Source: Bartonella machadoae
GTDB lineage: Bacteria > Pseudomonadota > Alphaproteobacteria > Rhizobiales > Rhizobiaceae
NCBI RefSeq assembly: GCF_022559585.1
Contig: NZ_CP087114.1
Location: 2,488,501 to 2,552,500 of the forward strand
Direction: 5' to 3'
Length of the DNA stretch: 64,000 nucleotides
Shown piece after piece: positions 10,553-17,257 of this stretch. Numbering within the stretch: the first letter of the stretch is position 1; each line of letters starts with the position of its first letter. The notes under the pieces are model-generated. The model was not told where the DNA came from, did no database searches, and worked only from the letters and a program-made list of their open reading frames with translations. The position numbers and the translations under genes are program-made.

Positions 10553-11225
10553 ATTGATTTATAACGATAATTTATCGTTTTTCATGTTGAATGAGACCCT
10601 CGAATCTTGTAAGATTCTTTCATCTCAAATTCTCTTATGTTGAATCAATCATAATCATTTATTTGCGCGTTATAAGCGGAGTTAGCGTGTGGGTAGAAAA
10701 CTCTAATGAAAGAAGTAAAAATGCCTTTAATGAATCGTCTCAATAACAAGGGTTGTCGCACCATTGGGGACCGGTAAAGAGTACGATGGTGCCGGCTTGC
10801 ACCTTCATAAGCGTAAAGATGGTGGTGCTCAATGGCTTTACCATTATACCATTTGCGGGCGCCGTCGTGAAATGGACTTCTGTGCTTTAAGAAATTTTTC
10901 TTTAAAGCAAGCTCGTGAATGTGCAACTGGGTGGCGTTCTGTTTTGCATGAGGGGTGTGACCCCATTAAAGAACGTAACAAACAAAAGCATGAGACAATG
11001 TGTAATCTGCATTATCTAAAAGATATCGCTCTCGATGCTTTTGAAAGTCATAAAGTTGAATTAAAAAGAGATGGTAAAAGTGGTGCGTGGTTTTCATCTT
11101 TAAAACTTCATATTCTCCCTAAATTAGGCTGTTTACCAGTTTCAGAGATTACGCAAACTGATATACGTAGAGCAGATCTTCAAACATTTTCCACTCCATT
11201 TCATCACAAATACAAACACACTTAA
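10553..11225 (+). pseudogene. Truncated P4-type tyrosine integrase with its upstream region (copy 1)
   Basis: The 153-residue frame starting at 10764 covers only the N-terminal part of a P4-like integrase: YDGAGLHLHKRKDGGAQWLY, then GRRREMDFCALRNFSLKQAR (the DUF4102-type arm-binding domain), DPIKERNKQK and an SKxxKxxILPKLG-type core-binding segment up to SEITQTDIR. It then runs into unrelated sequence (ADLQTFSTPF) and stops at 11225. The catalytic domain with R, HxxR and Y is absent, so it cannot recombine. About 200 bases upstream, from ATTGATTTATAACG at 10553, are also conserved in the copies near 26.9 kb and 61.1 kb. The downstream direct repeat begins where the integrase homology ends. 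Confidence 0.8.
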
Positions 11226-16103: not shown

Positions 16104-16405
16104 GTCTGCGTAGCTCAGTAGGATAGAGCACAGGATTCCTAAGGAAATTGGGCACATTAAGGAGAAATCTTTAAAGTGAATCTGCTCAAATTCGGGGAAA
16201 GCTTCATAGGGACTATATGCCAATCCCGAGCCAAGCCTTTTTTCAAACAAAAGGAAGGTGTAGAGACTGAACGGGCAGCACCTAAAGAGCGTAAGCTTCA
16301 AGGTGAAGAGACAGTCCAGACCACAAACAGCTTACAAAGCTGGCGGTGAAAATCGAAGTGGTATGAATCCTGGGGTCGCAGGTTCGAATCCTGCCGTAGA
16401 CACCA
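16104..16405 (+). tRNA. tRNA-Arg(CCU), split by a group I intron
   Basis: Exon 1 (16104-16140) starts GTCTGCG and ends in the anticodon CCT; exon 2 (16366-16405) starts AATCCTG and ends CGTAGACACCA. Joined, they give 77 nt with all arms: 7-bp acceptor (GTCTGCG/CGTAGAC, one G-U), D-stem GCTC/GAGC, anticodon stem CAGGA/TCCTG with loop TTCCTAA, T-arm GCAGG/CCTGC with loop TTCGAAT, and an encoded CCA end. The intervening 225 bases match a group I intron inserted after anticodon position 36. The same tRNA is interrupted in Agrobacterium, where the intron self-splices in vitro. Gene finders that do not allow large introns will miss this tRNA. It reads AGG codons. Confidence 0.93.
16141..16365 (+). 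ncRNA. Group I self-splicing intron (IC3-like) in tRNA-Arg(CCU)
   Basis: 225 nt between the CCU anticodon and the 3' half of the loop. It follows a U and ends in G, the rule for group I introns. The core parallels the Azoarcus tRNA-Ile intron as I remember it: CAAATTCGG then GAAA, GCCAAGC, GAAGGTGTAGAGACT (P7 left strand), a CACCTAA segment, GGTGAAG and CAGTCCAG (P7 right strand). Small hairpins are visible: TTAAGGA/TCTTTAA closed by GAAA (likely P2) and CAGCTT/AAGCTG (likely P9). The GGG at 16150-16152 could pair with the CCU 5' exon end as the guide, by analogy with the three-base P1 of Azoarcus. No endonuclease gene is inside. Confidence 0.9.
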
Positions 16406-16451: not shown

Positions 16452-16847
16452 ATGAAAAAAACTCCACAACATTTAGGATTTTTCGCCGCTTTAATTTTAT
16501 CATCTTTCAGCTCAATTAATGCCTTCGCTGGCTCTATAGTGATTGAGGTACCAGACACTCCAGAACCAAAAACACAAACCGTCGCCTATCAATGTGATAC
16601 TGGAACCAGTAAAGAACGTGTTGAAGCCGTCTATCTCAATGCTGATAATATTTCATTGGTTGATTTCAAGTGGAAAGGTGACCGCGTTATTGCTGCAAAT
16701 GTCATCGCCAATACAGGGAAAAAATATGAAGGAGCCCAGTATATTTGGTGGGAAATCAACAATGAAATTATACTTCATGATCTTGTTCAAGATCCAGAAG
16801 GAAAAAAACGCATCCACTGTAAAGATGAATCGACATTATTATTTTAA
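16452..16847 (+). CDS. MliC-like periplasmic lysozyme inhibitor (tandem copy 1)
   Basis: 131 residues with a signal peptide (MKKTPQHLGFFAALILSSF to AFAGS). The mature part has the MliC (C-type lysozyme inhibitor) layout: YQCDTGTSKERVEAVYLNAD, then ISLVDFKWKG and a YEGAQYIWWEINNEIILHD segment that parallels the SGSGxxYxxxxxxFWxKGxEA region. Two Cys (Y-Q-C and a C-terminal H-C) could form the fold's disulfide. There is no lipobox, so it would be soluble. MliC-type proteins protect Gram-negative peptidoglycan from host lysozyme, sensible for a host-associated bacterium. It lies just after the split tRNA gene and 17 bases before a close paralogue. The family call is by eye. Confidence 0.7.
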   Translation: MKKTPQHLGFFAALILSSFSSINAFAGSIVIEVPDTPEPKTQTVAYQCDTGTSKERVEAVYLNADNISLVDFKWKGDRVIAANVIANTGKKYEGAQYIWWEINNEIILHDLVQDPEGKKRIHCKDESTLLF

Positions 16848-16864
16848 AGAACAAAGGAGACATC

Positions 16865-17257
16865 ATGAAAAAAACTTTTTTTAATTTACGGTTTTTTGCC
16901 ATTTTAAGTCTATCACTTTTTAGCTCAATGAGTGCTTTTGCGGGCTCTCTCGTCATTGAGGTGCCAGACACCCCAGAACCAACAACAGAAATTGTTTCCT
17001 ATAAATGCGAGATGGGAACAAAAAAGGAGCATGTTGAGGCAACCTACTACAATGCTGGTGACATTTCATTAGTTGATCTCAAATGGAACGGAAAGCGTGT
17101 TATTGCTGCAAATGTTATTGCCGCTTCTGGAGCAAAATATGCGGGAGCTGAATATATTTGGTGGACGACAAAAAACGAAGCTTCATTTTATAACCTCATT
17201 AATGATCCAAAGGAGGAAAATCCTTTCCTTTGTACAGAGGAACAAGATACAAAATAA
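16865..17257 (+). CDS. MliC-like periplasmic lysozyme inhibitor (tandem copy 2)
   Basis: 130 residues, paralogous to the gene before it over the whole length: signal peptide ending SAFAGS, the identical start of the mature protein (LVIEVPDTPEP against IVIEVPDTPEP), YKCEMGTKKEHVEATYYNAGD, ISLVDLKWNGKRVIAANVIA, then YAGAEYIWWTTKNEASFYNL, which is closer to the MliC consensus (W-x-x-x-x-E-A) than copy 1. AGGAG lies six bases before the ATG. The pair most likely arose by local duplication and is co-transcribed. Divergence is concentrated in the C-terminal 30 residues, so the two may differ in target or stability. Confidence 0.72.
   Translation: MKKTFFNLRFFAILSLSLFSSMSAFAGSLVIEVPDTPEPTTEIVSYKCEMGTKKEHVEATYYNAGDISLVDLKWNGKRVIAANVIAASGAKYAGAEYIWWTTKNEASFYNLINDPKEENPFLCTEEQDTK

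Follow-up and report, generated by a model that had tools for sequence, protein, structure and literature searches.

Among bacterial tRNA introns, the group I intron of Azoarcus tRNA-Ile(CAU) is small, lies in the anticodon loop and has its guide about nine bases into the intron. Introns in tRNA-Arg(CCU) genes of Agrobacterium and other alphaproteobacteria were reportedly described by Reinhold-Hurek and Shub in 1992 and by Paquin in 1999. The closest described system is BbgpI, the tRNA-Arg(CCU) intron of Bartonella bacilliformis, for which Wachter et al. (2020, PMC7717549) describe splicing in vivo and self-splicing in vitro. The same paper places the introns of Agrobacterium and other alphaproteobacteria at the same CCT-flanked site of the same host tRNA (PMC7717549). 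This kind of intron is already known, its Bartonella version has been published with splicing data, and for the genus it is ordinary.

In this context, we analyzed a locus of Bartonella machadoae within a stretch of 64,000 nucleotides, referred to here as the window. Beside aroB, a tRNA-Arg(CCU) gene of 77 nt when spliced (16104-16140 plus 16366-16405) is split by a 225-nt group I intron (16141-16365). An earlier sequence-only reading had proposed this gene, and its coordinates, lengths and anticodon are right to the base by exon and intron positions, ARAGORN and comparison. The gene consists of three parts:

16104..16140, + strand: 5' exon of tRNA-Arg(CCU), 37 nt, ending with the anticodon CCT (U36)
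16141..16365, + strand: group I intron, 225 nt, between tRNA positions 36 and 37, its last base being omega-G
16366..16405, + strand: 3' exon of tRNA-Arg(CCU), 40 nt, with CCA encoded

We regard it as nearly certain that the Bartonella gene beside aroB is interrupted by a small member of the family of group I introns known from alphaproteobacterial tRNA-Arg(CCU) genes, without a reading frame of endonuclease size, and that this intron would splice out to leave a normal AGG-reading tRNA.

Two neighboring features of the window were noted by eye. Downstream of the tRNA, the neighboring open reading frames 16452-16847 and 16865-17257 have small products that resemble each other and look secreted, apparently the result of a tandem duplication. 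A 153-aa frame at 10764-11225 resembles the N-terminal part of a phage-type integrase and is probably a remnant.

The covariance-model search suggested by the sequence-only reading bears out that the insert is a group I intron: RF00028 matches 16128-16330 with 65.3 bits (gathering score 50; E 2.6e-14), from the first to the last position of the model (1-253), and no other Rfam family reaches its gathering score anywhere in the 64-kb window. Matches to HPnc0260, rnk_leader, Plastid-ycf2, RAGATH-8 and Fluoride in the region fell below the cut-offs and were taken as chance, while a sub-threshold Rfam tRNA match corresponds to the 3' half of the tRNA-Arg(CCU) gene. With default settings ARAGORN reports 0 tRNAs in the 64-kb window; once introns are permitted, its output is tRNA-Arg (cct) i(38,225), a 225-nt intron starting at gene base 38. 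On the flanks joined by script it calls a 77-nt tRNA-Arg (cct), so the expectation that the two halves assemble into a tRNA of that length holds. The statement that standard tRNA finders miss the gene applies to the ARAGORN default but not to its intron option, and was somewhat overstated. The result closes an annotation gap, in that the tRNA-Arg(CCU) gene of a Bartonella escapes a tRNA finder unless introns are allowed for.

ARAGORN alone cannot fix the splice sites, because some tRNA was still called for 33 of 80 joins that had been displaced by as much as 40 nt. In the window copy, moreover, intron and 3' exon both start with AA, so that a shift of the splice sites by 1 or 2 nt gives an identical product. 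The assigned sites rest on a comparison of 107 gene copies, some genomes being counted more than once, which comprise 62 distinct sequences (60 from Bartonella, the remaining 2 from a different genus of the order). An exon-final U, an intron-final G and a guide TTGGG near the intron start, beginning after 4 to 12 intron bases, are present in 107/107. In eight of these copies the intron starts with GA, which allows no shift, and in four it starts with AG, which excludes the 2-nt shift.

The secondary structure was evaluated by counting paired cells over the 62 distinct sequences, using a structure derived from the copy in the window, so that the counts favor this copy. Helices are named according to the Rfam structure line and to what is generally known of group I introns. 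The elements are:

16150..16152, + strand: internal guide GGG, nine bases into the intron, forming P1 with exon CCU and a U.G at the splice site (P1 186/186 paired)
AUU just upstream of the guide GGG 16150..16152, + strand: P10, can pair with AAU of the 3' exon (184/186)
16153..16178, + strand: P2 hairpin with GAAA loop (610/678; both-side changes in 9/11 pairs)
16182-16185 with 16275-16278, + strand: P3 (248/248)
16192..16229, + strand: P4-P5 domain, P4 being 16192-16197 with 16224-16229 (P4 372/372)
16230..16259, + strand: P6/P6a domain (P6a 347/362, both-side changes in 5/6 pairs; P6 124/124)
16265-16269 with 16312-16316, + strand: P7, the guanosine-binding helix, enclosing the 3' strand of P3 and P8 (310/310)
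16279-16305, + strand: P8 (P8 292/310; inner P8 233/248)
16321..16361, + strand: P9 region with an outer helix CCAC/GUGG, P9 and GAAA-capped P9.1 (248/248, 240/248 and 248/248)

The P3-P9 core with its guanosine site in P7, which characterizes group I introns, is thus present and completely paired in P3, P4 and P7. The exon-final U paired with a guide G and the intron-final G are likewise as expected of the class, the U.G at the splice site occurring in 62/62 distinct sequences. P5 is paired in 123/124 cells and the helix above it in 217/243. Sliding the strands by one or two bases gave at best 248/372 for P4 and 124/310 for P7; P6 slid by +2 also reached 124/124, so its register is not unique. 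Both-side changes affect 4/4 pairs of the helix above P5, 4/4 of inner P8, 3/4 of P9 and 2/4 of P9.1, as well as one pair each of P3, P5, P7 and P8. None were found in P1, P10, P4, P6 or the outer P9 helix among the 62 distinct sequences, and P1, P4 and P7 give little covariation of their own because they hardly vary. Registers first set by hand for P4, P6 and P7 paired in only 178/372, 62/124 and 310/372 cells and were discarded; the Rfam alignment supplied new ones for P4 and P6, and P7 was shortened to its five fitting pairs. A P3 longer by one pair was rejected as well (248/310).

These elements suggest how the precursor tRNA would be processed. The guide GGG would pair with the anticodon CCU as P1, and a guanosine bound in P7 would attack after U36. 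The freed exon would then attack after omega-G, with P10 aligning the 3' exon, to leave a normal 77-nt tRNA reading AGG. The proposed steps follow the group I mechanism as given in PMC3984707.

Within Bartonella the gene is found throughout. By DNA similarity, the full 302-nt gene is present in 71/71 genus genomes with 74-100% identity. AroB relatives in named genomes amount to 48 loci, 37 of them in Bartonella and the closest at up to 86% identity. All 37 named Bartonella aroB loci have the interrupted tRNA beside aroB, including that of B. bacilliformis Ver097 (L108), which ties the gene to its family by sequence homology; neither exon was found within the stretch examined, with up to 11 mismatches, at the 11 loci outside the genus. 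Between the aroB stop and the tRNA lie 57-73 bases in 36 of the 37 cases measured (the window and 36 loci); the exception, L124, has an early stop in translation. RF00028 matched 36 of 37 genus genomes of a first sample versus 0/24 genomes of other genera, with a model that is not fully sensitive, since five of the 36 matched genomes lie below the gathering score and G033 gave no match despite its intron. G033 had been a candidate for a genus member lacking the intron, which was rejected when the intron was found there. Intron and aroB distances correlate with a Mantel r of 0.72, with 0/999 permutations as high, over 36 sequences (the window and 35 named loci, leaving out L124, whose aroB translation stops at codon 25, and L126, whose aroB match is partial). 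This correlation fits an intron inherited with the chromosome.

Some observations concern aroB itself. Decay of the gene is possible in part of the genus, as G033 gave no AroB match in a search run without its own positive control. There (L190, G033:C1:449700-454200) similarity to the window at the DNA level breaks off within the xerD-like/aroK stretch and is picked up again shortly before the tRNA. The early stop of L124 belongs to B. clarridgeiae, and L126 of B. rochalimae matches AroB only over residues 242-376, with 46%.

The sequence-only reading had also argued that growth depends on splicing if this is the only tRNA reading AGG. The genome of the window (G000) has 37 RF00005 tRNA matches, all read by ARAGORN, with tRNA-Arg anticodons ccg, tct and acg; cct is absent among these 37, a list that is not exhaustive in that it also lacks tRNA-Ile(GAT) and tRNA-Ala(TGC). 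The same genome was also scanned with a pattern for intact CCT or TCT sequences from anticodon to T-arm, which assumes a 5-nt variable loop and exact consensus bases; it found the TCT tRNA, a TTCT match that does not resemble a tRNA arm and a TCCT match that lacks an anticodon stem. Across the genus it recovered the expected TCT tRNA arm in 60/61 genomes, missing it in G018, which is 85% complete. It also gave 16 CCT-type matches, of which two were folded (the one in the window's genome and one in G021), neither with an anticodon stem; the other 14 all come from other genomes. A second tRNA-Arg(CCU) in this genome thus appears unlikely from these searches. In 15 ORFs of the window, 5 of the 228 arginine codons are AGG, and tRNA-Arg(UCU) may read AGG by wobble. 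No other tRNA-Arg(CCU) was thus found by these non-exhaustive searches, but the dependence of growth on splicing is unproven, because tRNA-Arg(UCU) is present and may read the codon, which is rare.

A related idea is that the intron depends on a host protein to splice in the cell and could match AGG decoding to the conditions of growth (Mg2+, GTP, temperature). The presence of the intron in 71/71 genus genomes speaks for such a role, as does the presumption, stated in PMC7717549, that every group I intron relies to some degree on protein cofactors in vivo. However, the same paper reports that the ortholog self-splices in vitro, and AGG is scarce in the 15 window ORFs counted; we consider the idea unlikely. 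Slightly less likely still is the composite view that an intron patchy in the family became fixed and vertically inherited in a gene that is apparently the sole source of tRNA-Arg(CCU) in this Bartonella, and that the splicing of this intron may control AGG decoding in a condition-dependent way.

Outside the genus the state of the site is mixed. Among 121 sampled genomes of the wider family, a pattern representing the 5' half of the gene matched 61 times in 49 genomes and not at all in 72. For 30 of these 61 matches, ARAGORN called an intron at the same site in 12 loci, of which 2 are Bartonella, and an intact gene in 6; the remaining 12 were neither, and all of these are one-mismatch pattern matches. 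Elsewhere in the family, these calls indicate, the site is sometimes occupied and sometimes empty. At the level of the order, RF00028 matched 42/397 genomes, and ARAGORN in intron mode assigned 28 of the loci (L157-L184), with several doubtful anticodons, to tRNA-Leu (10), tRNA-Thr (6), tRNA-Phe (5) and tRNA-Arg(cct) (3, one in Bartonella), and one each to tRNA-Ser, tRNA-His and tRNA-Stop, leaving one without a call. By these calls, introns in tRNA-Leu, tRNA-Thr and tRNA-Phe genes occur in other genera of the order (L159-L182). At a further locus, L225 (G203:C36:10000-13500), two strong group I intron matches lie about 1.5 kb apart, and reading frames that on inspection by eye resemble GIY-YIG-type endonucleases stand beside pieces of a phage-type RNA polymerase gene.

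Occupied and empty sites side by side in the family (12 intron-bearing and 6 intact among the 30 loci) could speak for a mobile intron now spreading by homing, and the 1999 work of Paquin reportedly has horizontal transmission in its title. Against this, every one of the 71 genus genomes is occupied, and the correlation between intron and aroB distances (Mantel r 0.72) is as expected for descent with the chromosome. Nor is there an encoded homing endonuclease, the mark of mobile group I introns: no ORF of at least 100 aa overlaps 16104-16405, in agreement with the earlier description of a small intron without an endonuclease gene, and the longest stop-free stretch in the six frames of the 107 introns is 85 codons. 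Present-day homing is accordingly a very improbable account of this intron. Patchy in the family and apparently fixed in one genus, the intron offers a useful case for asking what keeps group I introns in bacteria when no endonuclease is encoded.

The acceptor, D, anticodon and T stems of the tRNA are fully paired in 62/62 distinct sequences, with a T stem that varies on both sides (GCAGG/CCTGC, GTAGG/CCTAC and GTGGG/CCCAC). That the gene is a decayed tRNA pseudogene or the intron a dead relic that lost splicing is scarcely credible, since rare AGG codons (5/228 in the 15 ORFs) and a tRNA-Arg(UCU) that might cover them are outweighed by these conserved stems with their both-side changes, a preserved catalytic core and an ortholog that splices, as PMC7717549 describes. 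Judged by its sequence, the intron is well preserved, orthologous to the published one and almost certainly functional.

The present analysis extends a published single-species result to 71/71 genus genomes and adds a genus-wide count, the finding that distances of intron and aroB agree, the patchy occupation of the site beyond the genus, and a warning concerning essentiality. No survey of the intron across the genus was found in the literature searched, most subscription papers lying outside that search. The Azoarcus intron resembles that of the window in being small and lying in an anticodon loop, whereas its tRNA and guide are different. The Agrobacterium-type introns share its host tRNA and CCT-flanked site as described in PMC7717549; by insertion after the CCU anticodon of tRNA-Arg, as placed by ARAGORN, the window intron takes the position of the alphaproteobacterial tRNA-Arg(CCU) introns. 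The two relatives of the order at the same site, L183 and L184, have introns of 245 and 255 nt. Most similar is BbgpI, which shares genus, host tRNA and CCT-flanked site with the window intron, the two being orthologs; in the B. bacilliformis locus L108 the intron has 230 nt versus 225 nt in the window. The locus G445:C1:42403-42709 lies within 2 bases of the BbgpI locus c42404-42711 given in PMC7717549, so G445 is probably the strain studied there. Taking it as such, the whole gene is 89% identical between the window and BbgpI's strain. BbgpI belongs to a different species and its splicing has been shown, whereas the window copy is known from sequence; by analogy, we infer that it splices like its B. 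bacilliformis ortholog and that the resulting tRNA is used for AGG.
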